Below are positions 11,759 through 37,643 of a stretch of 40,278 bases of DNA, one piece after another. Position numbers and translations under genes: made by a program. The DNA lies in NCBI GenBank assembly GCA_944383515.1, contig CALWPV010000099.1:1-40278 (forward strand), read 5' to 3'. The number at the start of each line of letters is the position of its first letter. Within the stretch, counting starts at the first letter, position 1. Source of the stretch: an uncultured Clostridia bacterium (GTDB lineage: Bacteria > Bacillota > Clostridia > Lachnospirales > Bianqueaceae). The notes below the pieces were generated by a model. The model had not been told where the DNA came from and did not search any database. It was given only the letters and a program-made list of their open reading frames with translations.

Positions 11759-11811
11759 AACTGAGAAGAGAAACAGACGGAGTGCTAAGGCACTTTGAAA
11801 TGGAGGTTTCT

Positions 11812-12231
11812 ATGGCTGATTGTATTTTTTGTAAAATTGCGGCGGGAGAGATTGCGTCGCATACGGTGTATGAAGACGCGCTGTTTCGGGTGATTATGGA
11901 TTTGAATCCGGCCAGCCCGGGACATATGCTGATTTTGCCGAAGGCGCATTATCAGGACTTTTTTGAGCTGCCTAACGAGGTGGCGAGCGCGGCCATGCTC
12001 CTTGCTAAACGCCTGGCGCTGGCGGCGAAAAAGGCGCTGCCAATGGATGGGCTGAATATTGTGCAGAACAATGGCAAGGCCGCGGGGCAGAGCGTTATGC
12101 ATTACCACCTGCACGTGGTGCCGCGCTACCAGGGCGTAGCGTTTAAGCTGGGAGAGGGCAGCGCTACGCAGCAGGAGCTGGCCGAGCAGGCAGAGTGCAT
12201 TCGGGCTGCTTTGGAAGAGGCAGAGCGCTAA
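11812..12231 (+). CDS. HIT (histidine triad) family nucleotide hydrolase
   Basis: A 139-residue HIT protein of the HinT/Hit type, which hydrolyses nucleoside phosphoramidates or related nucleotides. The start at 11812 gives the canonical MADCIFCKIAAGEI opening with a zinc-type CxxC, behind a TGGAGG ribosome site. A start 10 codons upstream would add unrelated residues. The catalytic triad is in HYHLHVVPR at about residues 97-105. It is the first gene of an apparent operon with murG, the galK-galT fusion and a cyclophilin; the next gene follows by 15 bases. No functional link to murG is known to me. Confidence 0.93.
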   Translation: MADCIFCKIAAGEIASHTVYEDALFRVIMDLNPASPGHMLILPKAHYQDFFELPNEVASAAMLLAKRLALAAKKALPMDGLNIVQNNGKAAGQSVMHYHLHVVPRYQGVAFKLGEGSATQQELAEQAECIRAALEEAER

Positions 12232-12246
12232 GCGAGGCATTTTCTT

Positions 12247-13320
12247 ATGCAACCGCTGGTGTTTTTAACAGGCGGCGGTACGGCCGGGCATGTTACTCCG
12301 AACCTGGCGCTGGTTCCGCTGCTGAGCCAAAAGGGCTATCGCATCGGTTACATAGGAAGAAAAAACAGTATTGAAGAACAACTGGCTAAGGGAGCGGCCC
12401 TGCCGTTTTATCCGATTCATGCGGGGCGGCTGCATCGAGACTTTAATCTGGAAAACTGGGTGAGCCCGCTGCAAAATCTGTGGGGCACAGCCCAGGCGGC
12501 GCGGCTGATCCGCAGGGAAAAGCCGGCGGTTATTTTTTGTAAGGGCGGCTTTGTGAGCGTGCCGGTAGCGCTGGCGGGGCATATGCAGGGCGTGCCGGTT
12601 ATTTTGCACGAGTCCGATATGACGCCGGGGCTGGCTAACCGGCTCTGTCTGCCGGCGGCCGACGTGGTATGCACCGGGTTTGAGGAAACGCTGGGCTATC
12701 TGCCGCACAAAAAAGCGATTTATACGGGCACCCCGGTGCGCGGGGAGCTGCTTGGCGGCAGCGCGGAAGAAGGCCGGCGCATTACCGGCTTGCAAGGCCG
12801 CAGGCCAGTGGTTTTAATTATGGGCGGCAGCAGCGGCGCGGGCGCAATCAATGCAGTGGTAGGTCCGGGCGCGGCGTATCTGACCGAGCGGTACCAAATT
12901 GTGCATTTATGCGGACGAAAGCAGGTACAGGGCTGCGAGCCGCGCCGCGGCTATTTTCCCATGGCATACGCGGGCAAGGAGCTGCCGCATCTCTATGCGC
13001 TGGCCGACATAGTGGTTAGCCGCGCGGGAGCGAATGCGCTGGCAGAGATTCTGCTATTAAAAAAGCCAAACATTTTAATACCGCTGCCCAAAGCGGTGAG
13101 CCGCGGCGATCAGATTTTAAATGCGACAAGCTTTGCCGGCAAAGGCTATAGCTATGTATTGCCGCAGGAAGAGCTAACGGTAAAGCGGCTGCGGCAGGCG
13201 CTGGATCAGGTGTATGCGGAGCGAGAAGGCTACCGGCGCGCCATGATAAATAGTAAGGGATCCGAAGCAGCGAAGGCTGTGCTGCGCGTTATTGAACGCG
13301 CGGCGGCTAAATCAAAATAA
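12247..13320 (+). CDS. murG: MurG: lipid II-forming GlcNAc transferase (first copy)
   Basis: Transfers GlcNAc from UDP-GlcNAc to lipid I to make lipid II at the inner face of the membrane, in peptidoglycan synthesis. The protein has 357 residues in two GT-B domains. The N-terminal loop GGGTAGHVTPNLAL, the membrane-side FCKGGFVSVPVALAG, the HESDMTPGLANRL segment, the glycine-rich IMGGSSGAGAIN and the nucleotide-binding SRAGANALAEILLL are visible. This is the clostridial MurG type. A second copy at 22459 is similar along its full length. Here it lies between a HIT gene and the galactokinase-uridylyltransferase fusion, outside any mur/fts division cluster. Confidence 0.93.
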   Translation: MQPLVFLTGGGTAGHVTPNLALVPLLSQKGYRIGYIGRKNSIEEQLAKGAALPFYPIHAGRLHRDFNLENWVSPLQNLWGTAQAARLIRREKPAVIFCKGGFVSVPVALAGHMQGVPVILHESDMTPGLANRLCLPAADVVCTGFEETLGYLPHKKAIYTGTPVRGELLGGSAEEGRRITGLQGRRPVVLIMGGSSGAGAINAVVGPGAAYLTERYQIVHLCGRKQVQGCEPRRGYFPMAYAGKELPHLYALADIVVSRAGANALAEILLLKKPNILIPLPKAVSRGDQILNATSFAGKGYSYVLPQEELTVKRLRQALDQVYAEREGYRRAMINSKGSEAAKAVLRVIERAAAKSK

Positions 13321-13338: not shown

Positions 13339-16059
13339 ATGCGAATACTAGACGAGTTTCAAAAACGCTACGGAGAAGGCGAAGCGGCGGTATATTTTGC
13401 GCCGGGGCGCGTCAATTTAATTGGCGAGCATATTGATTATAACGGCGGCAAAGTATTTCCCTGTGCGCTGAGCTTTGGCACGTATCTGGCGGTTCGACTA
13501 CGCGAGGACCGCACGGTGCGTCTGGCAAGCGTAACATTTCCGCAGGTGATCACGGTTTCGCTGGATCATATGGTATACGACGAGAAAGACGGTTGGGGCA
13601 ATTACCCCAAAGGCGTGATCAAAGAATTTCAAATGAGAGGACATGAGCTGGGCGGCATGGACATTCTGCTGCTGGGCGAAATTCCGAACGGCTCCGGCCT
13701 GTCTTCTTCCGCGTCGGTGGAAGTGGTTATGGCTACTATGCTTAACGACGTCTTTCACTGTGGGTACGACAAAGTAACGCTGGTACAAATGTGCCAGCAC
13801 TCTGAAAACACATTCAACGGCGTGGCCTGCGGCATTATGGATCAGTTTGCCGTAGGGCTGGGGCGGGAAGACCAGGCCGTTTTGCTAGACTGCGCCACAT
13901 TGGAGTATCAGTACGCGCCTCTGCATTTGGAGGGCCTGAGCCTGGTTATTGGCAATACCAAAAAGCGCCGCGGCCTAGCCGATAGTAAATATAACGAGCG
14001 GCGCGCCGAGTGCGAACGGGCGCTGGCCGATTTGCAGCGCGAGCTTAGCATTCAGGCGCTCTGCGATTTAACGCCTGAAGTCTTTGAAAAATACCGCTAT
14101 TTAATTCGCGGACAAAAAGAGCTCATGCGCGCGCAGCATGCCGTATACGAAAACGAACGCGTGCGGCAGGCAGCGCGGGCGCTGGAGCGCGGCGATATGG
14201 CGCGCTTTGGTCAGCTCATGAACGAGTCGCACGATTCGCTGCGCGATCTGTACGAGGTTACGGGGCCGGAGCTTGACGCTATGGTTGAAGAAGCGCGGCG
14301 CGTGCCGGGCACGCTCGGCAGCCGTATGACGGGCGCTGGATTTGGCGGCTGCACCGTGAGCCTGGTGCGCAGCGATCAGGTCGAAACCTTTATTCAGCAG
14401 GTTGGCGCGGCATACCAAAAGCGCACCGGCCTCAAACCGGAGTTTTACGTGGCGCGGGCCGGTCAGGGCGCGCACCGCGTAGACGAACCCATTGCGTTTT
14501 TGGTGGAGCAGCTGCTTTGTTACGGGCTTGACAAAAAGCTGATTGAGCGCGAAGACGTTGTTTTCGTTCGCAACCAGCTTTTAGAGCAGCTGCGATGCGA
14601 AGAACCGTACGAGAAAACCGAGGGCACATTGCCATGCCGGGAAGCGTTTGCCGCCATGCGGCAAAAAATACAGGGCAATTCTCCGGCGCCGGTACTGGAC
14701 AAGATTTTAGATTATATGGTTGATCGCGGCCTTATTGAAGACGAAACGGTGACGCGGCGAGATTTAATGGACGCGCGGCTGATGGGATTTTTTATGCCGC
14801 GGCCTTCCGAGGTGGCGAAAGAGTTTGAGCGGCTGCGCCTGCAGGATCCGCGGCAGGCGTCGGAGTATTTTTACCAGCTTTCGCGGGCCGGCCATTACGT
14901 TATGGACGAGAGAATCGAGAAGAATCTATACTGGCTGGCGGAGACGCCCTATGGAAATTTAGAGATTACGATTAACCTGTCTAAGCCGGAAAAAGATCCG
15001 CGCGAGATTGCGAAGCTGCGCACCATGAAGAGCGCGGCGTATCCCAAATGCCTGCTTTGCCCGGAAAATGTGGGCTATGCGGGGCGGCTGAACCACCCGG
15101 CCCGGCAAAACCTGCGGCAGATTCCTATTACGCTGCAGACAGAGCAGTGGTATTTGCAGTATTCGCCGTATGTATATTATCAGGAGCACTGTATTTTGCT
15201 TAAGGGCGAGCATGTGCCCATGAAAATTACCGAAACCACATTTCGACGGCTGATTCAGTTTATTGAGCTGATGCCACATTACTTTATGGGTTCCAATGCG
15301 GGGCTGCCGGTAGTAGGGGGTTCTATTTTAAATCACGAGCACTACCAGGGCGGACATCACGTTTTCCCCATTGAGAAGGCCAGCGTTCGCCAGGTGTATA
15401 AGTTCCGCGGCTTTGAAGAGATTTCGGTTAGCGTGATTAACTGGCAAATGTCATGCATTCGGCTGTCTGGACGCGATAAAGAGAAGCTCATTGAGCTGGC
15501 AACGCATATTCTGCATTTCTGGGAAGACTACAGCGACGAACGGGTGCAGATTCTGGCGCAGACCAATGGCGAGAAGCATAACGCGATTACGCCGATTGCC
15601 CGGTTTAACGAGAAGGGTGAGTATGAGCTGGATCTGGTGCTGCGCAACAACCGTACTTCACAGGAGTACCCCGATGGCATTTTCCATCCGCATCCGGAGC
15701 TGCACCACATTAAAAAGGAAAACATTGGGTTAATTGAGGTAATGGGACTGGCGGTGCTGCCGGGACGCCTGCAGGGCGAGCTCGAAATGATTGTGCCAAT
15801 CCTGACCGGACGCGTGTCTATGGAAAGCATGACGCCGGAGGAAGCGGAGCGCATCGGCAAGCATGTGCCGTGGATTTTGGACATGCAAAAGCGGTATGGC
15901 GTAATTGAGAGCGAGGCCAAGGCGCGCGAAGTGCTGCGGCGCGAGGTCGGCGCTATTTTCTCACAGGTTTTGGAAGATGCCGGCGTGTATAAGAACACGT
16001 TAGAAGGCATGGAGGCGTTTGACCGTTTCATGCTGAAAGCCGGATTTTTAAGAAAATAA
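13339..16059 (+). CDS. galK/galT: Galactokinase fused to class II galactose-1-phosphate uridylyltransferase
   Basis: One open frame of 906 residues holds two complete Leloir enzymes. Residues about 1-385 are galactokinase: GRVNLIGEHIDYNGGK near residue 30, the ATP loop GSGLSSSASVEV near 115-126, and SRMTGAGFGGCTVSLV near 330-345. Residues about 386-906 are a class II (Bacillota-type) uridylyltransferase, beginning at IAFLVEQLLCYGLDKKLI. The active-site region GGSILNHEHYQGGHH is near residues 660-675, and LHHIKKENIGLIEVMGLAV lies near 790-810. The two halves are normally separate adjacent genes (about 390 and 500 residues), and here they join with almost no linker. Together they would convert galactose to galactose-1-phosphate and then, with UDP-glucose, to UDP-galactose and glucose-1-phosphate. 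The matching epimerase galE is 5 kb downstream. The gene follows murG by 18 bases. Confidence 0.93.
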   Translation: MRILDEFQKRYGEGEAAVYFAPGRVNLIGEHIDYNGGKVFPCALSFGTYLAVRLREDRTVRLASVTFPQVITVSLDHMVYDEKDGWGNYPKGVIKEFQMRGHELGGMDILLLGEIPNGSGLSSSASVEVVMATMLNDVFHCGYDKVTLVQMCQHSENTFNGVACGIMDQFAVGLGREDQAVLLDCATLEYQYAPLHLEGLSLVIGNTKKRRGLADSKYNERRAECERALADLQRELSIQALCDLTPEVFEKYRYLIRGQKELMRAQHAVYENERVRQAARALERGDMARFGQLMNESHDSLRDLYEVTGPELDAMVEEARRVPGTLGSRMTGAGFGGCTVSLVRSDQVETFIQQVGAAYQKRTGLKPEFYVARAGQGAHRVDEPIAFLVEQLLCYGLDKKLIEREDVVFVRNQLLEQLRCEEPYEKTEGTLPCREAFAAMRQKIQGNSPAPVLDKILDYMVDRGLIEDETVTRRDLMDARLMGFFMPRPSEVAKEFERLRLQDPRQASEYFYQLSRAGHYVMDERIEKNLYWLAETPYGNLEITINLSKPEKDPREIAKLRTMKSAAYPKCLLCPENVGYAGRLNHPARQNLRQIPITLQTEQWYLQYSPYVYYQEHCILLKGEHVPMKITETTFRRLIQFIELMPHYFMGSNAGLPVVGGSILNHEHYQGGHHVFPIEKASVRQVYKFRGFEEISVSVINWQMSCIRLSGRDKEKLIELATHILHFWEDYSDERVQILAQTNGEKHNAITPIARFNEKGEYELDLVLRNNRTSQEYPDGIFHPHPELHHIKKENIGLIEVMGLAVLPGRLQGELEMIVPILTGRVSMESMTPEEAERIGKHVPWILDMQKRYGVIESEAKAREVLRREVGAIFSQVLEDAGVYKNTLEGMEAFDRFMLKAGFLRK

Positions 16060-16078: not shown

Positions 16079-16879
16079 GTGAAAAGAAAAACATGGAAAA
16101 ACGCGGCGGCGCTGCTGGCAGTAGTTGTTATTATGCTAACGTGCTTAACCGGGTGCGGTACGGCGGATTATGAGAAGCAGTTTTCGGAACCGGACGAGGG
16201 CGATACGATTGCCGTAATTCATACGAATTTGGGCGACATTACCGTGCGCTTTTTTGAAGACGAGGCGCCGAAAGCGGTGGAGAATTTTGTTACGCACGCG
16301 CAGGAAGGGTATTATGACGGCCTTGAATTTTTCCGCGTGATCGATGACTTCATGATTCAAAGCGGCGATCCGGAGAACACCGGGCGCGGCGGCGAAAGCA
16401 TTTGGGGCGGTACGTTTGAAGACGAAATGGTTGACTATTTAAGCCCCTATTATGGCGCGCTGTGTATGGCCAATAAAGGTACGGATACCAACGGAAGCCA
16501 GTTCTTTATTGTGACTTCGCAGGATAAAGACACGACAACGCTGGAAACCGTCAACGAAACGGCGGCCAAGGCGGAAAAAGTGGATCAGGCGAAAATCGAC
16601 AAGTATAAAGAAGTAGGCGGCGCCATGTGGCTGGACTCACAGGTTAGCGTTTTGTATGAATCCGCCTACCCGTATACGGCGTCTTCGCACACGGTGTTTG
16701 GCCAGGTGCTGGACGGTATGGACGTAGCGGAAGCCATTGCGGCGCTCCCCACGTACACGGCGGAGGAAGCCGATGACGCGACCATTGACGATCCGGAGCA
16801 GACCGATGTGCTAGAAAATAAACCCAAAGAAGAGGCATACATTATTAATATTGAAATCACCACCTATCAGCCGGAATAA
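16079..16879 (+). CDS. Lipoprotein cyclophilin-type peptidyl-prolyl isomerase
   Basis: A 266-residue secreted foldase anchored by lipid. The signal peptide runs to an LTGC lipobox at about residues 20-23 (GTG start, AAAGGAAC upstream). The cyclophilin core begins at IAVIHTNLGDITVRFFEDEAPKAVENF and includes EFFRVIDDFMIQSGDP, NGSQFFIVTSQ and HTVFGQVLDGMDVAEAI. An extra charged segment of roughly 35 residues lies between the NGSQFFIV strand and the HTVFG motif, and an acidic segment precedes the last strand. It probably helps proteins fold outside the membrane. It is the last gene of its operon; a terminator follows. Confidence 0.92.
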   Translation: MKRKTWKNAAALLAVVVIMLTCLTGCGTADYEKQFSEPDEGDTIAVIHTNLGDITVRFFEDEAPKAVENFVTHAQEGYYDGLEFFRVIDDFMIQSGDPENTGRGGESIWGGTFEDEMVDYLSPYYGALCMANKGTDTNGSQFFIVTSQDKDTTTLETVNETAAKAEKVDQAKIDKYKEVGGAMWLDSQVSVLYESAYPYTASSHTVFGQVLDGMDVAEAIAALPTYTAEEADDATIDDPEQTDVLENKPKEEAYIINIEITTYQPE

Positions 16880-16914
16880 GTTTGGAAAAAAACGGATTTT
16901 AAGTGGGAAACCAA

Positions 16915-16950
16915 GGGCAAATTTCGCAAAAAGTTTGCCCTTTACTCTTT
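16915..16950 (+). terminator. Intrinsic terminator after the cyclophilin gene
   Basis: GGGCAAA at 16915-16921 pairs with TTTGCCC at 16934-16940, followed by a T-rich tail (TTTACTCTTT). It partly overlaps the -35 box of the downstream promoter. Confidence 0.75.
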
Positions 16951-16976
16951 ACAGACTATGCAAAAGGTGATAAAAT
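16948..16976 (+). promoter_or_regulatory. Promoter of the pyruvate:ferredoxin oxidoreductase gene
   Basis: TTTACA at 16948-16953 and TAAAAT at 16971-16976, spacing 17, with a TG one base before the -10 box. It implies a 5' leader of about 95 bases before the start at 17077. Confidence 0.7.
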
Positions 16977-17076
16977 CAAAGCTGGTCTTAAACTAATTTT
17001 ATGTAATCATGCTAAGGAATTGGCATTACCTGTATCTTGCAGGGATCTACAATATTTCATGAAAGGGAGTTTAACT

Positions 17077-20000
17077 ATGGCAAGAAAAAAGAAAACCATG
17101 GATGGTAATAACGCCGCGGCTTATGTGTCGTACGCGTTTACCGAGGTAGCCGGTATCTACCCCATTACGCCGTCCAGCCCCATGGCAGACTATGTTGATC
17201 AGTGGTCTGCACAGGGACAGAAAAACATCTTCGGCACCACGGTTAAGGTAGTCGAGATGCAGTCCGAGGCCGGTGCTTCCGGTACGGTGCACGGCTCTTT
17301 GGCAGCCGGCGCGCTGACCACAACCTACACCGCGTCCCAGGGTCTGCTGCTGATGATCCCCAATATGTACAAAATCGCCGGTGAGCTGCTGCCGACCGTA
17401 TTTCACGTATCGGCTCGCTGCGTAGCTTCCCACGCGCTGAACATTTTTGGCGATCATTCCGACGTATACGCATGTCGTCAGACCGGTTTCGCCATGCTCG
17501 CCGAGACCAACCCGCAAGAGGATATGGATCTGGGCGCTGTTGCGCATTTGGCAGCGATTAAAGGCCGCGTTCCGTTCATTAACTTCTTCGATGGTTTCCG
17601 CACCTCTCATGAGCTGCAGAAAATCGAAGTGTGGGATTATGAGGACCTGAAAGACATGTGCGATATGGACGCTGTTAAAGCGTTCCGTAAACGCGCGCTC
17701 AATCCTGAGCATCCCGTTATGCGTGGTTCTCACGAGAATGGCGATATCTTCTTCCAGCATCGTGAAGCCTGCAACCAGTATTACGAAGCCGTACCCGGCA
17801 TTGTAGAAGAGTACATGAACAAAGTCAATGCCAAACTGGGTACCGACTATAAATTGTTTAATTACTACGGCGCTCCGGATGCCGACCGCGTTATCGTGGC
17901 TATGGGCTCCATCTGCGACGTGGCAGAAGAAGTAATCGACTACCTGACCGCCGCAGGCGAAAAGGTTGGTTTGGTGAAGGTAAGACTGTATCGTCCGTTT
18001 GCGGCCGATAAGCTGATCGAGGCCCTGCCGTCTACCGTTAAGAAGATTGCGGTTCTGGATCGTACCAAAGAGCCCGGCGCGCTGGGCGAGCCCCTGTTCC
18101 TTGACGTAGTAACCGCGCTGTCTACCCATGGCGTAAACGCTAAGGTTATCGGCGGCCGTTATGGTCTGGGTTCCAAAGATACGCCTCCGTCAAGCGTCTT
18201 TGCCGTATACGAAGAGCTGGCTAAAGAGAATCCGCAGAGTCAGTTCACTATCGGTATTAACGATGACGTAACGCATTTGTCTCTTCCGGAGAAACCCTCG
18301 CCGAATACCGCTGCAGAAGGCACCATTGAGTGCAAGTTCTGGGGTCTGGGTGGCGACGGTACCGTAGGCGCCAACAAGAACTCGATCAAGATCATTGGCG
18401 ACCACACCGACAAATACGTACAGGCTTACTTCCAGTATGACTCCAAGAAGACGGGCGGCGTAACCATTTCGCATCTGCGTTTTGGCGACAAGCCGATTAA
18501 GAGCCCGTACTATATTAACAAAGCAGACTTTGTTGCCTGCCACAATCCTTCCTACATACTGAAGGGTTACAAAATGGTAAACGATGTGAAGCCCGGCGGC
18601 GTATTCCTGATTAACTGCCAGTGGACGCCCGAAGAGCTGAACAACCATTTGAACGCAGAAACCAAGCGTTACATTGCGAAGAACAACATTCAGCTGTACA
18701 CCGTTAACGCGATTGATCTGGCCGTTCAGGTAGGTATGGGCAAGAGAACCAACACTATTTTGCAGGCTGCTTTCTTCGCTCTGGCTAACATTCTGCCGAT
18801 CGAAGACGCAATCCGTTATATGAAAGACGCTGCTACTAAATCCTACATGAAGAAAGGTCAGGAGATTGTAGACAGCAACCATAAAGCGATTGACGCCGGC
18901 GTATCCGCTTTCGTGAAGATTGACGTACCCGCGGACTGGGCTGATGCGGTAGATCATACCGAGCCTGAAAAAGAAGAGGGTCCGGAGAAACTGGTGAAAA
19001 TGGTTGATAACATTTTGAAACCGGTAGACCTGATGGATGGCGATTCGCTGCCGGTATCCGTATTCATGGATCATGTAGACGGTACCTTCGAGCAGGGCGC
19101 TTCCGCTTATGAGAAACGCGGCGTTGCCGTTAACGTTCCCGAGTGGAATGCGGCTACCTGTGTGGGCTGTAACAAATGTGCATTTGTTTGCCCGCATGCT
19201 ACCATTCGTCCGTTTGCTATGACGCAGGAAGAGCTGGACGCGGCTCCGAAAGCAATCAAGACCGGTTCTAAAGAAAGAACGGCCGCTAAGGCTGGTTATA
19301 CCTATACGCTGGCTATTTCTCCTATGGACTGCATGGGCTGCGGCGTTTGCGTAAGCGTATGCCCGACCAAGTCTCTGACAATGGTGCCGCGTGAGTCTCA
19401 GGATGAGCAGCAGCCGGTATTTGATTACTGCGTAGCGAACGTTTCTGAGAAAGAAGAGCTGACCAAGACCATTACGCCGATCAGCAGCCAGTATAAGAAA
19501 CCGTTGCTCGAGTTCTCCGGTTCCTGCGCAGGCTGTGCCGAGACCTCGTATGCACGCTTAATTACGCAGCTGTTTGGCGACAGAATGTATATTTCTAACG
19601 CAACCGGTTGCTCCTCTATTTGGGGTGGTCCCGCGGCTACTTCGCCGTACACCACAAACAAAGCAGGTCATGGTCCCGCTTGGGCTAACTCCCTGTTCGA
19701 GGATAACGCGGAGCATGGTTTTGGTATGTATCTGGGTCAGAAGGCGATTCGCAGCCGTCTGATCGAAGAAGTAAAAGAAATCGCCACTTCCGAGAAGGCA
19801 AGCGAAGAAGTGAAAGCCGCCGCTCAGGCGTACCTGGATACGGTAAACGACGGTGAGAAGAACGGCGCGGCTTCTGAGGCGCTGGTAGCTGCGATTAAGA
19901 ATCAGGGTCATACCTGTGAGCTGTGCCAGGATATTCTGGATAACGAGGATTACCTGTCCAAGAAGTCTGTATGGATCTTCGGCGGTGACGGTTGGGCTTA

Positions 20001-20631
20001 CGATATCGGCTTTGGCGGTCTGGATCATGTGCTTGCACAGGGCGAAGACGTAAACGTCATGGTATTCGATACCGAGGTTTACTCCAATACCGGTGGTCAG
20101 GCTTCCAAGGCGTCTCAGATTGGTCAGGTTGCCCAGTTTGCTGCGGCAGGTAAAGCCATTGCCAAGAAGAGCCTGGCAGAGATTGCTATGTCCTATGGCT
20201 ACATCTATGTGGCGCAAATCGCTATGGGCGCTGACAACAACCAGACGCTGAAAGCGATTCGCGAGGCTGAGGCATATCCGGGTCCGTCGCTGATTATCGG
20301 CTACGCTCCGTGTGAGATGCACAGCATTAAGGGCGGTATGGTTAACTGCCAGCTGGAAATGAAGAAGGCTGTAGATTGCGGCTACTGGAATCTGTTCCGC
20401 TTCAATCCGCTGCTGAAGGCAGAAGGCAAGAATCCGTTCACAATGGATAGCAAAGCTCCGACCACGAGCTATCAGGACTTCATTATGAATGAGGCCCGCT
20501 ACTCTGCGCTGACCCGTTCCTTCCCCGAGAGAGCGAAAGAGCTGTTCGAAAAGGCAGAAGAGAATGCGTCTGCACGGTATGAGCATTTGCAGAGACTGAG
20601 CGAGATGTTCGCGCCCAAGGCGAATGACTAA
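17077..20631 (+). CDS. nifJ: Pyruvate:ferredoxin (flavodoxin) oxidoreductase
   Basis: Oxidises pyruvate to acetyl-CoA and CO2 with transfer of electrons to ferredoxin, a central reaction of anaerobic fermentation. The single chain of 1184 residues is the usual length. It shows the N-terminal pyrimidine domain (GIYPITPSSPMADYVDQW), the gamma domain (GLGGDGTVGANKNSIKII), two [4Fe-4S] motifs (CVGCNKCAFVCPH and CMGCGVCVSVCPTK), a third cluster region around CAGCAETSYARL, and the TPP-binding IFGGDGWAYDIGFGGLDHV. The start at 17077 has a GGGAG ribosome site and fits family length; an in-frame GTG at 16903 overlaps the terminator and promoter and is rejected. Codon use (frequent GGT, CGT and CTG with few rare codons) suggests high expression. 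It stands alone with its own promoter and terminator. Confidence 0.96.
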   Translation: MARKKKTMDGNNAAAYVSYAFTEVAGIYPITPSSPMADYVDQWSAQGQKNIFGTTVKVVEMQSEAGASGTVHGSLAAGALTTTYTASQGLLLMIPNMYKIAGELLPTVFHVSARCVASHALNIFGDHSDVYACRQTGFAMLAETNPQEDMDLGAVAHLAAIKGRVPFINFFDGFRTSHELQKIEVWDYEDLKDMCDMDAVKAFRKRALNPEHPVMRGSHENGDIFFQHREACNQYYEAVPGIVEEYMNKVNAKLGTDYKLFNYYGAPDADRVIVAMGSICDVAEEVIDYLTAAGEKVGLVKVRLYRPFAADKLIEALPSTVKKIAVLDRTKEPGALGEPLFLDVVTALSTHGVNAKVIGGRYGLGSKDTPPSSVFAVYEELAKENPQSQFTIGINDDVTHLSLPEKPSPNTAAEGTIECKFWGLGGDGTVGANKNSIKIIGDHTDKYVQAYFQYDSKKTGGVTISHLRFGDKPIKSPYYINKADFVACHNPSYILKGYKMVNDVKPGGVFLINCQWTPEELNNHLNAETKRYIAKNNIQLYTVNAIDLAVQVGMGKRTNTILQAAFFALANILPIEDAIRYMKDAATKSYMKKGQEIVDSNHKAIDAGVSAFVKIDVPADWADAVDHTEPEKEEGPEKLVKMVDNILKPVDLMDGDSLPVSVFMDHVDGTFEQGASAYEKRGVAVNVPEWNAATCVGCNKCAFVCPHATIRPFAMTQEELDAAPKAIKTGSKERTAAKAGYTYTLAISPMDCMGCGVCVSVCPTKSLTMVPRESQDEQQPVFDYCVANVSEKEELTKTITPISSQYKKPLLEFSGSCAGCAETSYARLITQLFGDRMYISNATGCSSIWGGPAATSPYTTNKAGHGPAWANSLFEDNAEHGFGMYLGQKAIRSRLIEEVKEIATSEKASEEVKAAAQAYLDTVNDGEKNGAASEALVAAIKNQGHTCELCQDILDNEDYLSKKSVWIFGGDGWAYDIGFGGLDHVLAQGEDVNVMVFDTEVYSNTGGQASKASQIGQVAQFAAAGKAIAKKSLAEIAMSYGYIYVAQIAMGADNNQTLKAIREAEAYPGPSLIIGYAPCEMHSIKGGMVNCQLEMKKAVDCGYWNLFRFNPLLKAEGKNPFTMDSKAPTTSYQDFIMNEARYSALTRSFPERAKELFEKAEENASARYEHLQRLSEMFAPKAND

Positions 20632-21431: not shown

Positions 21432-22469
21432 ATGATTTTAGTAACAGGCGGAGCGGGGTATATTGGAAGCCATACTTGTGTGGAGCTTTTGAATGCGGGC
21501 TACGACGTGGTGGTTATGGACAATTTAAGCAATGCAAGCGAGGAGTCGCTGCGGCGCGTAGAGCAGATTACGGGTAAAAGCGTGAAGTTTTACGAGGCGG
21601 ATCTGCTGGATAAGGCGGCGCTGGAGATGATTTTTAACGCGGAGCCGATTGATAGCGTGATTCATTTTGCGGGCCTGAAGGCGGTGGGCGAGTCGGTGGA
21701 AAAGCCGCTGGAGTATTATGAGAACAATATTATGGGCACGCTGAATCTGTGCAACGCTATGCGCGCGCATGGCGTAAAGAATCTGATTTTTAGCTCTTCG
21801 GCTACGGTATACGGCGAGCAGGAGGTAATGCCGATTACGGAGGAAATGCCGAAGCAGCCGGCTACGAATCCCTATGGCTGGACGAAGTGGATGATTGAAG
21901 AAATTTTGAAGGGCGTGCATACGGCAGACCCCGAGTGGAACATTATTTTGCTGCGGTATTTTAACCCTATTGGCGCGCATAAGAGCGGCCTCATTGGCGA
22001 GGATCCGAAGGGCATTCCGAATAATCTGGTGCCGTATGTGGCGCAGGTGGCTGTAGGCAAGCGGCCGTATGTGCGGGTATATGGCAACGATTACCCTACG
22101 CCGGACGGCACGGGCGTGCGTGATTATATTCATGTGGTGGATTTGGCGCGTGGCCATGTGAAGGCGCTGAAGAAGCTGGAAGACAAAGAAGGCGTGAGCA
22201 TTTATAATCTGGGAACCGGCCGCGGCTACAGCGTGCTGGAAGTGATTCATGCCTACGAGAAAGCGTGCGGCAAGGAAATTCCGTACCAGATTGAGGGCCG
22301 CCGCGCGGGCGACATTGCCTCTTGCTATGGCGACCCCAGCAAGGCAGCGCGTGAGCTGGGCTGGAAGGCCGAGTACGATATAGAAGACATGTGCGCCGAT
22401 TCGTATCGCTGGCAGAGCATGAATCCCGAGGGCTACCACACGGCGCCGGCAGAGGATCATGCGCAGTAA
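21432..22469 (+). CDS. galE: UDP-glucose 4-epimerase
   Basis: Interconverts UDP-glucose and UDP-galactose with bound NAD+, the third Leloir enzyme. The protein has 345 residues. The Rossmann motif VTGGAGYIGSHTCVEL is at the N-terminus, the serine block is SSSATVYGEQEVMP, and the catalytic Tyr-Lys pair is in NPYGWTKWMIE. The last 11 bases overlap the start of the second murG, so the two are likely co-translated. Some GalE proteins also act on UDP-GlcNAc/UDP-GalNAc; whether this one does cannot be told from the sequence by eye. The galactokinase-uridylyltransferase fusion is 5 kb upstream. Confidence 0.95.
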   Translation: MILVTGGAGYIGSHTCVELLNAGYDVVVMDNLSNASEESLRRVEQITGKSVKFYEADLLDKAALEMIFNAEPIDSVIHFAGLKAVGESVEKPLEYYENNIMGTLNLCNAMRAHGVKNLIFSSSATVYGEQEVMPITEEMPKQPATNPYGWTKWMIEEILKGVHTADPEWNIILLRYFNPIGAHKSGLIGEDPKGIPNNLVPYVAQVAVGKRPYVRVYGNDYPTPDGTGVRDYIHVVDLARGHVKALKKLEDKEGVSIYNLGTGRGYSVLEVIHAYEKACGKEIPYQIEGRRAGDIASCYGDPSKAARELGWKAEYDIEDMCADSYRWQSMNPEGYHTAPAEDHAQ

Positions 22470-23550
22470 GCTCATTTACATGGCCGGCGGCGGCACGGCC
22501 GGCCATGTAAACCCGAATCTGGCGCTAGTGGAGCCGCTGCAAAAGGCGGGCTTTCAGGTGGAATATCTGGGACAGAAAGACGAAATCGAATATGGGCTGG
22601 CCACGGAGGCCGGCCTTGTCTTTCATGAGGTAGTCTCGGGGCGGCTCAACCGTGGTTTGAACTTGTGGCAAAATTTGCGGCAAAACCTGCCTACTCCTTT
22701 TCGCGTGGTGCGCGGTATCGGGCAGGCCGTGCGGCTGATCCGCCGGCGCCGGCCGGCGCTTATCTTCTGTAAGGGCGGTTTTGCCAGCTTGCCGGTAGCC
22801 GTGGGCGGCTGGCTGCTGCGCGTGCCGGTCATTTTACACGAATCCGATTTAACGCCGGGACTGGCAAACAAGCTTTGCGCCCCCTTTGCCAGCCGTATTT
22901 GCGTGACCTTTGAAGAAACGCTGCGTTACATGCCGCGGCGCAAAACGCGCTACACCGGTACGCCCATTCGCGCCTCGCTGCAGCAGGGAAGCCGGGAAAA
23001 AGGGTTTGCCCTAACAGGACTGGATCCGGCAGGGCTGCCGGTGCTGCTTGTCGTGGGCGGCAGCCAGGGCGCGGGCGCGCTCAACGACATAGTGCTTCAA
23101 AACCTGGAGGCGCTGTGCCGGCGGTATCAGATTGTACACCTTTACGGCGGCGAGCAGAGCGGATTTACGCCGCCGCAGCACAAGGGCTACTACGCCATGG
23201 CGTACGCCAAAAGCGAAATGGCCGATCTTTTCGCCATGACCAGTGTAGTGCTGAGCCGCGCGGGCTCCAACTCGATCAATGAATTTCTGCTGCTGCGCAT
23301 TCCCAATATTCTGGTGCCCCTGCCTCTTACCGTAAGCCGTGGCGACCAGATTTTAAACGCGAAGCACTTTAAAGAAAAAGGCTTTAGCTATGTGCTGCCT
23401 CAAGAAGAGCTAACCGGTAAGAGCCTGCTTAGCGCCCTAGACTACGTAAGCGCACACCGGGCCGAGTACCAGGCCGCCATGGGCGGAAAAGACGCCAAAA
23501 ACGGCACGGCCGAGGTGCTGCGAGAGATCATAGCCGTGGCTTCGCACTAG
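22459..23550 (+). CDS. murG: MurG-type GlcNAc transferase (second copy)
   Basis: A 363-residue paralogue of the murG at 12247. All family motifs are kept: GGGTAGHVNPNLAL, FCKGGFASLPVAVGG, HESDLTPGLANKL, VVGGSQGAGALND, SRAGSNSINEFLLL and SRGDQILNAKHF. Nothing indicates inactivity. The two copies read as closely similar, with nearly the same wording in the HESD, FEETL.Y.P and LPQEELT blocks. One copy presumably makes lipid II; the other may be redundant, differently regulated, or act on another acceptor or sugar nucleotide. The start overlaps galE by 11 bases, while nagZ, a cell-wall recycling enzyme, follows 30 bases downstream. Confidence 0.9.
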   Translation: MRSKLIYMAGGGTAGHVNPNLALVEPLQKAGFQVEYLGQKDEIEYGLATEAGLVFHEVVSGRLNRGLNLWQNLRQNLPTPFRVVRGIGQAVRLIRRRRPALIFCKGGFASLPVAVGGWLLRVPVILHESDLTPGLANKLCAPFASRICVTFEETLRYMPRRKTRYTGTPIRASLQQGSREKGFALTGLDPAGLPVLLVVGGSQGAGALNDIVLQNLEALCRRYQIVHLYGGEQSGFTPPQHKGYYAMAYAKSEMADLFAMTSVVLSRAGSNSINEFLLLRIPNILVPLPLTVSRGDQILNAKHFKEKGFSYVLPQEELTGKSLLSALDYVSAHRAEYQAAMGGKDAKNGTAEVLREIIAVASH

Positions 23551-25209: not shown

Positions 25210-28200
25210 ATGAACGAGTCCATTGTTTTCATTGACACAGAAGTAGGCAGAGATAACCATACCATTTACCAAATCGGCGCACTGCGCGAGGGACGCGCGG
25301 ATTTTCATTCGTCCTCGCTAGTCGAGTTTTTTCGCTATATTCAGGGGGCCGAGCTGATCTGTGGACACAATATTTTGCAGCACGATTTGCCCTGTCTGCA
25401 AAAGGCGGCGCCCGACGCCGCTATTACGGCCGCGCCGGTCGATACTTTATATCTCTCGCCGCTGCTCTTCCCCGAAAAAACGCACCATGCGCTTGCTAAA
25501 GACGAAAAGCTGCAAGACGCAGAGCTAAGCAACCCCGTAAATGATTGCCGCAAGGCGAAAGCGCTTCTCTATGAAGAGGTTAACGCATTCGCCGCGCTGC
25601 CGTCGAAGCTAAAACGCATTTTCTGCGCGCTGCTCTACGCGCACAAGGAATTTCAGGGATTCTTTCAGCTTGTGGGCTTTAAGCCATACGCCGGTCAGTT
25701 GGCGCAGCCTATTCGCGAAACCTTTCGTGGTCAGATTTGTGAAAGCGCTCCTATCGAGGCGCTTGTGCAGGAGCAGCCCGTGGAGCTTGCCTACGCTCTG
25801 GCGCTCATTCATGGAGGGGAGGGCTGCGCTCAGCCGGGCCCGTGGCTGCGCGCTGCCTACCCTAAGACCACACATGTGCTGCGGGCGCTGCGCGCCGTGC
25901 CCTGTCACAGTGCTTCCTGCGCTTATTGCCAGTCCGAACTTAGCGTAACTGCGGCGCTGCAGCGGTACTTCGGCTACCCCAGCTTTCGCACCTATGGCGG
26001 CAGGCCCTTGCAGCAAGAAGCGGCTCAGGCCGCCGTAGACGGCGCTTCGCTGCTGGCCGTGTTTCCCACAGGCGGGGGAAAATCCATTACGTTTCAGCTG
26101 CCCGCGCTCATGGCGGGGCGGGCGGAACACGGCCTTACCGTTGTGATTTCGCCTTTGCAATCGCTTATGAAGGATCAGGTCGATAATTTAAACGAAAAAG
26201 GCATTACCGAGGCCGTAACCGTTAACGGGCTGTTAAATCCGGTGGAGCGCGCCAGCGCTCTGCAGCGCGTAGCCGACGGCTCCGCCAGCCTGCTTTACAT
26301 ATCGCCGGAACAGCTGCGTTCGCGCACCATAGAGCGGATACTCAGCGGGCGCACCGTGAGCCGGTTTGTCATTGACGAGGCTCACTGCTTTTCGGCGTGG
26401 GGCCAGGATTTTCGCGTAGACTATTTATATATTGGCGATTTTATCCGGCGCATGCAGGAGATCCAGGGGCCGGGCGTAACCATACCCGTTTCCTGCTTTA
26501 CCGCCACGGCTAAACAGAAAGTAATAGAAGATATTAGCGCGTATTTTAAAGACAAGCTGGGGATTACGCTGCAGCTTTTTGCCGCCGACAGCATGCGCGA
26601 AAATTTGCATTATACCGTACTGAAAATGCAAAGCGAAGAAGAAAAATATACAGCGCTGCGCCGGCTTCTCGAAGAGAAGCGGTGCCCTACCATTGTGTAT
26701 GTGTCCCGCACACGCCGTACGCGGGAGCTGGCTGAAAGGCTGACGCGCGATGGGTTTGCGGCTCTGCCGTTTAACGGAAAAATGGAAGCGGCCGCTAAAA
26801 TTGAGAATCAGGAAGCGTTTATTCAAAATCAGGCGCAGGTTATGGTGGCTACGTCGGCTTTTGGTATGGGCGTCGATAAAAAAGACGTGAAGCTGGTGGT
26901 GCACTATGAGATTTCGAGTTCGCTGGAAGATTATATGCAGGAGGCGGGGCGCGCGGGGCGCGATCCGGCGCTGGAGGCCGATTGCTATGTGCTGTACCAG
27001 GAGGCGGATCTGGACCAGCATTTTGCGCTGCTGAATCAGACGAAGCTGAGCCTGCGCGAGGTGCAGCAGGTGTGGCGGGCCATTAAGCAGATGACAGGCA
27101 GGCGGGACCATGTGCAGTGCTCGGCGCTGGAAATTGCGCGGCAAGCGGGCTGGGACGATACCGTGGCCGATGTGGAGACGCGGGTGCGTACGGCCATTGC
27201 GGCGCTGGAAACGGCGGGCTATGTAAAGCGCGGGCAAAATATGCCCCGCGTTTACGCAACCAGCATTTTGGCAAGAAACATGCAGGAGGCGGCGCGCCGC
27301 ATTGACGCTTCGCCGCTGTTTTCTAAGGTGCAGCGCGTAACGGCGAAGCGGGTGGTGCAGTCGCTTATTTCCCGGCGCCAGGCAGCGGCCGGGCAGGAGG
27401 ACGAAGCGGAGTCGCGGGTCGACTATTTAGCCGACCGGCTGGGCCTTCCGAAGGAGGACGTGATTGGCGCGATTAACCTTATGCGGCAAGACGGGCTTTT
27501 GGCCGATGCCATGGATATGACGGCCTACGTGCCGGACAAAGGGTTTGCCGGCCCGCGCGCGGTGCTGGAGAGCTTTGCCAAACTGGAGGCCTTTGTGCTT
27601 TCCCAGCTTTCGGAAGGCGGGTGCGAATGGAATTTTAAGGAGCGCAATGAGCAGGCGCTGGCGGGCGGCGTGAGCGGATCGAGCGTGAAGAAGCTGCGGA
27701 CGCTGCTCTATTACCACATTGTGCAGCACTATGTGGAAAAACCAGAGTATGCCGCGGCGGAAACGGTGCGTCTTACGCCCTGCGAGGCGCCGGAGGCGCT
27801 GCAGCGCCGATATGAGAGGCGGCTGCGGCTCTGCCGGTTTATTATCAGCGCGCTGGAAAGCCTGGCGGCCGAAGCGGATACGCCGGGGGGCGCTGGCCAG
27901 ACGGTTACTTTTTCACTGGTGGGCCTGCATAAGGCGTACCAGAACCGGCCGCAGGCCGATTTATTTGACGATCTGCCCGCTCTGGCCGATATGGAGGACG
28001 CGCTGCTCTATTTAGCGCGGATTGGGGCGCTGCGCCTGGAAGGCGGTTTTCTAGTGATTTACCAGGGCATGCAGATTGAGCGCCTGGTTATGGAGCCGCG
28101 GGTGCAGTATAAAGCCGAAGACTATAAGGCGTTTGAGGAGTTTTACCGGCAGAAGGTGCGGCAGATTCATATGGTGGGGCGCTACGCCGAGCTCATGGCG

Positions 28201-30006
28201 CAAAATCCGCCGGCGGCGCAGCAGTTTGTGCAGGACTATTTTCATATGGACGCGGGCCGCTTTGTGGCTAAGTATTTTAAAGGCGAGAGCCGAAAGGAAA
28301 TCGAGCGGGGCATAACGCCAAGCCGCTACCGGAAGCTGTTTGGCGACCTGTCGGCGGCGCAGCGGCAGATTATTGACGACGATACGGCGCGCTGCATTGC
28401 GGTAGCCGCGGGGCCGGGCAGCGGAAAAACGCGGGTGCTGGTCCATAAGCTGGCGGCGCTTTTGCTGCTGGAAGACGTCAAGCACGAGCAGCTGCTTATG
28501 CTCACGTTTTCGCGGGCGGCCGCGACAGAGTTTAAACAGCGGCTGGTCGAGCTCATGGGAAGCGCGGCGTATTATGTTGAGGTGAAAACCTTCCACTCGT
28601 ATTGCTTTGACTTAATGGGCCGGGTTGGCAGCCTGGAAGGCGCGGGCGACGTGGTGCAGCGGGCCGTGAGCATGATTCGCAGCGGTGAGGTAGAACCCGA
28701 AAAAATCACGAAGAGCGTGCTGGTCATTGACGAGGCGCAGGATATGGACGAGCACGAGTTTGCGCTGGTGGAGGCGCTAATGCAGCATAACGAGACCATG
28801 CGCGTGATCGCCGTGGGCGATGACGATCAGAATATTTATGCGTTTCGCGGATCCAGCGCCGCCTATTTTCGCTCGCTACTCACCAGGCATGACGCGGCGC
28901 TGTATGAACTAACCGAAAATTTCCGCAGCCGGGAGCCGATCGTGTCGCTGGCCAACGCGCTGATTCGCGCCCTGCCGGATCGCATGAAGCAGGAACCCAT
29001 TACGGCCGTGAGCAGCGAAGCCGGCGTTTGCGAGATCACGCGGTATCAGAGCCGGTACATGGCGCGGGCGGTGGCCGATCAGGTGGCCGAAACGGCGGGC
29101 GACGGCTCGGCCTGTGTGCTGACCAGCACCAATGAAGAAGCGCTGCAGATGCAAAGTCTTCTGCTGCAGCGCGGAATGCAGGTAAGGCTTATCCAGTCGC
29201 TCGACGGTTTTTCGCTCAGTAAGCTGGCCGAGGTGCGCTTCTTTTTGCAAACCATTGACCGGGAGCTGAGCTCGCCGGTAATCAGCAAAGCGCTGTGGGA
29301 GCGGGCGAAGCAGGCGCTGCAAAAGACCTATGCGCAGAGCGCCTGTCTGGAGAATGTCATGCATTTAATTCACGATTTTGAAAGCGTAAATCCGGTGAAA
29401 TATCGTACGGATTTAGACGAGTTCATTAAAGAATCGCGCTTTGAAGATTCGTACCACGACGAAGCCGGTACGGTTTTGGTTTCGACCATTCATAAGGCGA
29501 AGGGGCACGAGTTTTCTTCCGTTTATATGCTGCTGCAGGGCGAACGTGCGGTGGAAGATCGCCGCGCGCTCTATGTGGGACTAACCCGGGCCAGGAATGC
29601 GCTTTATATTCATACCAATACAGAGCTTTTTACCCCTTATCGGTCGCTGCCCGGCCTTACATGGAAAGAGAACCGGGCGCGCTACGGCGAGCCGTCTGAG
29701 CTGATTCTGCCCCTCATGCACCAGGACGTGGTGCTGGACTTTTTTAAGAGCAAGCAGTCGTATATCGGTCAGCTGCGCAGCGGTATGCCGCTGCACATGG
29801 ACAACGCGTATTTAACCGCTTCCTGCGGTGGGCGCCAGGTCCGAGCGGCTAAGTTTTCGCGCGCCTGCGCGGAGAGGCTGGCGGCGCTGCAAGAAAGGGG
29901 CTACAAGCCCGTAGAGGCCCGTGTCCGCTTTGTGCTCGGCTGGCAGCCGGCAGACGAGGCCGGCGAGCTGGAGATTCTCATTCCCACTTTATATTTAAAA
30001 AAATAA
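25210..30006 (+). CDS. Exonuclease-like / RecQ helicase / UvrD-type helicase fusion
   Basis: A single chain of 1598 residues with three nucleic-acid modules. Residues 1-130 resemble a DnaQ-type exonuclease: VFIDTEVG supplies Asp9 and Glu11, GHNILQHDLPCL supplies Asp59 and NDCRKAKALL supplies Asp112. The usual fifth-before-last His appears absent (Ser107), so nuclease activity is uncertain. A Cys-rich CHSASCAYC lies near residue 235. Residues about 255-650 are a RecQ-family SF2 helicase (FPTGGGKS near 286, VIDEAHCFSAWGQDFR near 387, QEAGRAGRDP near 577). A linker with winged-helix-like segments follows. Residues about 1040-1500 are an SF1 UvrD/Rep-like helicase (AAGPGSGKTRVL near 1067, VIDEAQDMDEHE near 1171, GDDDQNIYAFRGS near 1203, TIHKAKGHEF near 1425, YVGLTRARNAL near 1456). 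It probably acts in DNA repair or recombination. It is the last gene of the mtnN run and is closed by a terminator. Confidence 0.9.
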   Translation: MNESIVFIDTEVGRDNHTIYQIGALREGRADFHSSSLVEFFRYIQGAELICGHNILQHDLPCLQKAAPDAAITAAPVDTLYLSPLLFPEKTHHALAKDEKLQDAELSNPVNDCRKAKALLYEEVNAFAALPSKLKRIFCALLYAHKEFQGFFQLVGFKPYAGQLAQPIRETFRGQICESAPIEALVQEQPVELAYALALIHGGEGCAQPGPWLRAAYPKTTHVLRALRAVPCHSASCAYCQSELSVTAALQRYFGYPSFRTYGGRPLQQEAAQAAVDGASLLAVFPTGGGKSITFQLPALMAGRAEHGLTVVISPLQSLMKDQVDNLNEKGITEAVTVNGLLNPVERASALQRVADGSASLLYISPEQLRSRTIERILSGRTVSRFVIDEAHCFSAWGQDFRVDYLYIGDFIRRMQEIQGPGVTIPVSCFTATAKQKVIEDISAYFKDKLGITLQLFAADSMRENLHYTVLKMQSEEEKYTALRRLLEEKRCPTIVYVSRTRRTRELAERLTRDGFAALPFNGKMEAAAKIENQEAFIQNQAQVMVATSAFGMGVDKKDVKLVVHYEISSSLEDYMQEAGRAGRDPALEADCYVLYQEADLDQHFALLNQTKLSLREVQQVWRAIKQMTGRRDHVQCSALEIARQAGWDDTVADVETRVRTAIAALETAGYVKRGQNMPRVYATSILARNMQEAARRIDASPLFSKVQRVTAKRVVQSLISRRQAAAGQEDEAESRVDYLADRLGLPKEDVIGAINLMRQDGLLADAMDMTAYVPDKGFAGPRAVLESFAKLEAFVLSQLSEGGCEWNFKERNEQALAGGVSGSSVKKLRTLLYYHIVQHYVEKPEYAAAETVRLTPCEAPEALQRRYERRLRLCRFIISALESLAAEADTPGGAGQTVTFSLVGLHKAYQNRPQADLFDDLPALADMEDALLYLARIGALRLEGGFLVIYQGMQIERLVMEPRVQYKAEDYKAFEEFYRQKVRQIHMVGRYAELMAQNPPAAQQFVQDYFHMDAGRFVAKYFKGESRKEIERGITPSRYRKLFGDLSAAQRQIIDDDTARCIAVAAGPGSGKTRVLVHKLAALLLLEDVKHEQLLMLTFSRAAATEFKQRLVELMGSAAYYVEVKTFHSYCFDLMGRVGSLEGAGDVVQRAVSMIRSGEVEPEKITKSVLVIDEAQDMDEHEFALVEALMQHNETMRVIAVGDDDQNIYAFRGSSAAYFRSLLTRHDAALYELTENFRSREPIVSLANALIRALPDRMKQEPITAVSSEAGVCEITRYQSRYMARAVADQVAETAGDGSACVLTSTNEEALQMQSLLLQRGMQVRLIQSLDGFSLSKLAEVRFFLQTIDRELSSPVISKALWERAKQALQKTYAQSACLENVMHLIHDFESVNPVKYRTDLDEFIKESRFEDSYHDEAGTVLVSTIHKAKGHEFSSVYMLLQGERAVEDRRALYVGLTRARNALYIHTNTELFTPYRSLPGLTWKENRARYGEPSELILPLMHQDVVLDFFKSKQSYIGQLRSGMPLHMDNAYLTASCGGRQVRAAKFSRACAERLAALQERGYKPVEARVRFVLGWQPADEAGELEILIPTLYLKK

Positions 30007-36920: not shown

Positions 36921-36953
36921 GAAGCCTACTCTTAATTCCTGGAGGTGAGCGCT

Positions 36954-37550
36954 ATGTGGTATGCAATGCAGGTAAAAGGCGGCAACGAAAACTTGGTTTC
37001 ACAGCTTTGCAAAGCCCGGTTTCAAGGATCGCTGCTAAATAACTGCTTCTATCCTAAGCGAGAAATTATCCGCAAGGAGCGGGGAGAAAGAAAAGTGGTT
37101 ATGCGAACAATGTTTCCCGGATATTTGATTATCGACAGCGATGCGATCGACGAACTGTCCCGCTCGCTCTGGCAGGTACCAGAACTGACCAAGGTTATCA
37201 AAACGGGAACTACCGCCATTCCGATAGAGGGAGACGAACGCGAGTTTATCGAACGCCATAGCGATCAAAATCATGTTTTTCGCATGTCCAAAGGCTACAT
37301 GGTTGGCGATTTTGTCAAAATTGAAGAGGGCGCGTTTGCCGGATTTTACGGGCGCCTGCTCTACGTCAATCGTCACAATCGTTTCGGCGTTATGAAGATT
37401 CATATGTTTGGCAAAGAAATGGAAATCCAATTTGGCCTAGAGATCGTTCACAAAATTCCTTCACCAACCCAACCCATACATACACAAACCCCCGAGGTAG
37501 CGGGAGTTGGCGTCTTTACCGAGAATGCATGGCATTCTTATCCGTATTAA
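36954..37550 (+). CDS. loaP: Transcription antiterminator LoaP (NusG family)
   Basis: A 198-residue NusG paralogue that rides on RNA polymerase and lets it pass terminators in long biosynthetic operons. The NGN domain begins MWYAMQVKGGNENLVSQLC and includes CFYPKREIIRKERGERKVV and FPGYLIID. The KOW domain is in GDFVKIEEGAFAGFYGRLL. These features match LoaP, not the housekeeping NusG. A Pro/Thr-rich tail of about 30 residues follows. The ATG at 36954 has GGAGGT 7 bases upstream. It has its own promoter with a structured leader, and an intrinsic terminator followed by a polysaccharide gene lies directly downstream, as expected for a LoaP-controlled operon. Confidence 0.88.
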   Translation: MWYAMQVKGGNENLVSQLCKARFQGSLLNNCFYPKREIIRKERGERKVVMRTMFPGYLIIDSDAIDELSRSLWQVPELTKVIKTGTTAIPIEGDEREFIERHSDQNHVFRMSKGYMVGDFVKIEEGAFAGFYGRLLYVNRHNRFGVMKIHMFGKEMEIQFGLEIVHKIPSPTQPIHTQTPEVAGVGVFTENAWHSYPY

Positions 37551-37574
37551 ACTGTATAGTACATGTTTTTTAGG

Positions 37575-37598
37575 GAGCTGAGCAATCAGCTCTTTTTT
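37575..37598 (+). terminator. Intrinsic terminator between loaP and the dehydratase gene
   Basis: GAGCTGA at 37575-37581, GCAA tetraloop, TCAGCTC at 37586-37592, then six T. It lies 24 bases after the loaP stop and 46 bases before the next gene, in the position of a LoaP target. Confidence 0.85.
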
Positions 37599-37643
37599 GT
37601 TTACAAAAAAATGAAGGGGAACAAGGGAGGAGGTGTAGAAAGT

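Follow-up and report, generated by a model that had tools for sequence, protein, structure and literature searches.

A galactokinase fused to a class II galactose-1-phosphate uridylyltransferase in a single clostridial gene

In a stretch of 40,278 nucleotides from an uncultured Clostridia bacterium, analysed as a whole and called the window here, a preliminary description had placed a galactokinase (GalK) and a galactose-1-phosphate uridylyltransferase (GalT) in one protein. The question raised by this locus is whether a single gene really specifies both enzymes and, if so, how widely the arrangement is shared and what it would do. The frame described coincides exactly with an open reading frame of 906 codons on the forward strand (Table 1), and the galK-galT fusion is confirmed as real.

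The N-terminal half matches the NCBIfam galactokinase model NF003705 over nearly its full length (residues 3-381; 550 bits, cut-off 385) and also TIGR00131 (406 bits, cut-off 226.65). The Pfam domains GalKase_gal_bdg (residues 6-53), GHMP_kinases_N (88-175) and GHMP_kinases_C (279-359) were all found above gathering scores. Compared with GalK of L. lactis (1PIE), the half shows 46% identity, with a Z-score of 54 and an rmsd of 1.6 over 381 residues.

The C-terminal half is covered by the class II GalT subfamily model NF003629 (residues 385-901; model positions 4-504 of 508; 719 bits, cut-off 628), and GalP_UDP_transf (453-627) and GalP_UDP_tr_C (644-815) likewise exceed their Pfam gathering scores. 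With these full-length domains above cut-offs in a single frame, the earlier claim that both enzymes are complete holds. The class II GalT equivalog TIGR01239 was matched over its full length, though its score of 615.3 is 35 bits below the cut-off of 650.15, a threshold also missed by relatives such as G025 (644.9) and L172 (618.3). The assignment of GalT function is therefore based on NF003629 and on conserved residues. In the motif H666-E-H668-Y-Q670 both histidines and the glutamine are invariant in all 63 GalT rows of the alignment, and from GalT/HIT chemistry the nucleophilic histidine probably lies within it; C571 and C574 are probably metal ligands. Modelled alone, the GalT half reached a pLDDT of 91.8. 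Its model resembles yeast Ap4A phosphorylase Apa2 (4i5t; Z 16.6, rmsd 4.0 over 271 residues) and, weakly, class I GalT (5in3/1gup; Z about 7.4), the residues before about position 110 of the half being unmatched in the structure comparison. These similarities fit a place in the GalT branch of the HIT superfamily. In a sequence search of the PDB no chain matched this half, and the fusion offers a handle for a class II GalT structure.

Table 1. Coordinates of the fusion gene, its parts and its neighbours in the window, and of GalE-GalT fusions in other genomes
Feature	Position	Strand	Basis or remark
HIT protein, upstream	11782..12231	+	
MurG-like glycosyltransferase (PRK12446 type), upstream	12247..13320	+	18 nt from the fusion
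galK-galT fusion gene	13339..16059	+	single 906-codon ORF, ATG to TAA; domains; AlphaFold2 model
Galactokinase (GHMP kinase) half, residues 1-383	13339..14487	+	NF003705, TIGR00131, 1PIE match
Galactose-binding signature PGRVNLIGEHIDYNGG (R24, E30, H31, D33)	13402..13449	+	alignment
GHMP ATP-binding motif IPNGSGLSSSASVE	13681..13722	+	alignment
CGIMDQFA with predicted catalytic D168	13828..13851	+	alignment
Junction	14488..14532	+	GalK C-terminus directly into first GalT helix (model helix 385-398)
Class II GalT half, residues 385-906	14491..16056	+	NF003629; separate model
Cysteine pair CLLC (C571, C574)	15049..15060	+	invariant in 63/63 GalT rows
HEHYQ, H-x-H-x-Q motif of class II GalT	15334..15348	+	alignment
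Cyclophilin-type PPIase, downstream	16079..16879	+	
Pyruvate:ferredoxin oxidoreductase (PFOR), downstream	16903..20631	+	
galE, UDP-glucose 4-epimerase	21432..22469	+	TIGR01179, 480 bits, cut-off 262
GalE-GalT fusion loci	L172 3711-6278; L171 3985-6552; L173 4601-7156		

The two halves meet at about residues 380-395 (RVDEPIAFLVEQLLCYGL, stop-free), and in the window sequence and the model neither a stop, nor an in-frame methionine, nor a flexible linker is present at the join. In the relatives the junction reads QGAxRVDEPIEFLVEELLAYGL. An AlphaFold2 model of the whole protein, built with 109 aligned sequences, had a mean pLDDT of 93.8 and a pTM of 0.87, with 94-98 for the junction blocks; in this model the last strand of the fold completes the GalK half, and residue 385 opens the first GalT helix. 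GalK runs directly into GalT, and the preliminary description was right in seeing almost no linker. Besides the fusion, translation beginning inside the frame near residue 392 could yield a stand-alone GalT, or the chain could be cut, so that the enzymes would also work apart. In-frame TTG GTG codons (LV) are indeed located where the GalT half begins, close to the position at which the stand-alone GalT of related genomes (group g4, see below) starts, but no stretch resembling a Shine-Dalgarno sequence was seen just upstream of them, the fused relatives have no conserved methionine at this place, and the join is modelled as an ordered and confident segment rather than an exposed linker. Additional separate products appear improbable from these data.

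The best reading, and one held with considerable confidence, is that a single gene specifies a bifunctional enzyme of the Leloir pathway with two predicted activities. The residues of the kinase half bear on this. R24, E30, H31 and D33 are kept in 57 of 58 aligned GalK sequences, D168 is an aspartate in all 58, CGIMDQFA aligns with GILDQFA of 1PIE, and the ATP-site sequence GSGLSSSAS is present in the window protein. The sole exception in the galactose site is a degenerate copy in genome G329, where a fusion (L118, 8835-11591) has a kinase half without these residues: PGKINLIGAYLEKNGG replaces PGRxNLIGEHxDYNGG of the family, and CSTVDYL is found in place of CGIMDQF. A separate, intact galactokinase is encoded elsewhere in the G329 genome, and the motifs are intact in its sister G1266. 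The fused kinase half of G329 is probably a pseudokinase, and it looks like this half decayed after fusion while GalT was kept. Such drift of one half, whereby the kinase would turn into a galactose sensor or both halves would act on a different sugar-1-phosphate, apparently occurred in G329, but it is very unlikely for the window protein, in which every such residue is intact and whose genome gave no second galactokinase match.

Within the family, the fusion was detected in all nine sampled genomes of the genera g1 (two) and g5 (seven), at 67-76% protein identity and with an unbroken junction, so that the expectations of conservation in a clade and of a frame without a stop near position 14490 were both borne out. 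That a lost stop codon or a frameshift artificially joins two ordinary adjacent genes could be suspected in a draft genome of 134 contigs whose relatives contain close galK/galT pairs with a stop between them, but chance or assembly error is excluded for practical purposes, because eight further genomes share the uninterrupted frame and the junction shows the same conservation as the remainder of the chain. For both halves dN/dS was about 0.05-0.14; for the junction it was similar, 0-0.13, in four of five pairs, and 0.31 in the pair G017/G015, calculated over only 25 codons. Four g5 genomes (G012, G013, G014, G018) have an extra insert in the N-terminal region of GalT, past the junction.

The gene order rsmI-HIT-(MurG)-galKT-cyclophilin-PFOR is kept in most g1/g5 genomes; in G015 PFOR is located elsewhere on the contig, some other contigs break off too soon, and only in g1 does the MurG-like gene adjoin the fusion. 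In g4 (L128, L129, L130) GalT is found alone at the syntenic locus (HIT-MurG-GalT-cyclophilin) and begins with MTDIKMLVEELVAYALD, and no close galactokinase was detected anywhere in these genomes (best match 27-30% identity). Either the kinase half was deleted in g4, or the fusion arose later. A candidate remnant of the GalK end upstream of the g4 GalT (query residues 356-384) was rejected, being read-through of a stop-filled frame or out of frame. In g2 and g3, galK and galT are separate, more distant genes.

Searches beyond the family used the window protein as query and drew on genomes of the order (392), the class (391), the phylum (398) and family f6 (378), as well as on a genome-collection scan; these are samples centred on this one protein, and more fusions may exist. 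Fused frames were found in G025 (926 aa), G329 (918 aa) and G1266 (926 aa) by the sweeps and in the Clostridia bin E03_bin49 (874 aa) by the scan, while relatives mostly have galK and galT as separate genes. The fusion is not unique to the group of the window but recurs a few times in Clostridia. Plasmid and phage collections yielded only matches below 60% identity, the best of them in two pieces, as expected for separate genes. GalK-GalE-GalT triple fusions suggested by open frames of 1236-1316 aa in some genomes were discarded, the ORFs proving to be separate.

Trees of GalT and of GalK each require four changes between the fused and the separate state, and well-supported branches impose three of these. 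In the GalT tree G329 is grouped with G1266 (95*), and E03_bin49 has a very long branch. A single GalT clade of g1 and g5 with G025 was rejected when g4 was left out (p 5e-5) and not rejected when g4 was included (p 0.39); the group of the window (with g4) and G025 may therefore share one origin, GalK having been lost in g4. Two to four origins would be a fair statement from these trees. Many relatives contain galK and galT in the same frame, 3-57 nt apart and with stop codons in between, which is a plausible pre-fusion state. The fusion would have arisen from neighbouring galK and galT genes by loss of the few nucleotides between them, stop and start codons included, and from pairs of this kind a small deletion would suffice. 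The large number of same-frame pairs is partly a selection effect, since the search favours matches running through in a single frame, and no conclusion on a frame preference is drawn for this reason.

The galE gene is located 5.4 kb downstream of the fusion and completes the Leloir cycle nearby; its end is overlapped by a second MurG-like glycosyltransferase gene of the PRK12446 type (22459-23550, +). Two other regions of the window may be mentioned for their own sake. A protein of 1598 aa (25210-30006, +) combines a RecQ-like DEAD/Helicase_C part (265-584) with a UvrD-like helicase module (1048-1470), and at 36945-39743 (+) a NusG-like antiterminator and, after it, a PF02719 polysaccharide-synthesis protein resemble the beginning of a surface-polysaccharide cluster.

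In the proposed pathway, the N-terminal half would form galactose-1-phosphate from galactose and ATP, the C-terminal half would convert galactose-1-phosphate and UDP-glucose to UDP-galactose and glucose-1-phosphate via a covalent uridylyl-histidine, and GalE would regenerate UDP-glucose from UDP-galactose. Galactose-1-phosphate is the intermediate held to be toxic in galactosaemia. The main effect of the fusion is probably that both enzymes are made in a fixed 1:1 ratio and in the same place, which would make its build-up less likely. The two activities are deduced from family membership and intact residues; the identity of the substrates and the advantage of making both enzymes together are likewise inferred. 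The preliminary description had gone further and proposed channelling, for which the computed results gave no support, although the overall arrangement in the model is confident. That galactose-1-phosphate would pass directly from kinase to transferase between active sites fixed by the seamless join, making this a Leloir enzyme with natural channelling, is a possibility that we regard as rather doubtful; GalT may also be regulated by the kinase half, perhaps the sole role left to the latter in G329. A natural chain with both the maker and the consumer of galactose-1-phosphate lends itself to asking directly whether build-up is limited when kinase and transferase are coupled. Among the genes adjoining the fusion, no recognisable galactose transporter or beta-galactosidase was found, and the role could for this reason be supply of UDP-galactose for surface polysaccharide instead of catabolism.

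Both enzymes are known, and it is the combination of GalK with class II GalT that is new. As the preliminary description had supposed, no account of a GalK-GalT fusion was found in the open-access literature (subscription journals were outside the scope). Since the NCBIfam scan of the protein gave no model covering both halves, genes of this kind are likely named for one half only. In Firmicutes with separate genes, galK and class II galT specify the same enzymes in the same order and are often adjacent, but two proteins are produced there, whereas the window encodes a single chain interrupted by neither stop nor linker. FKP of Bacteroides (L-fucokinase/GDP-fucose pyrophosphorylase; PDB 5yys, 9iit) is likewise a GHMP sugar kinase fused to an enzyme that places a sugar-1-phosphate on a nucleotide, and its kinase domain matches the GalK half with a Z-score of 32. 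In FKP, however, the kinase is C-terminal, the partner is a GTP-dependent pyrophosphorylase and the sugar is a different one; the window protein has the reverse domain order and a UDP-glucose-dependent, GalT-type transferase of the HIT superfamily, and is not of the FKP type. Yeast Gal10, a GalE-mutarotase fusion, also joins two enzymes of the galactose pathway, but it is a different pair in a eukaryote. Fusions of GalE and GalT, 851-855 aa long, are present in G082, G137 and G189 of family f22; there, class II GalT is again C-terminal to another Leloir enzyme, but the partner is GalE, and galK is a separate gene 1 nt upstream.
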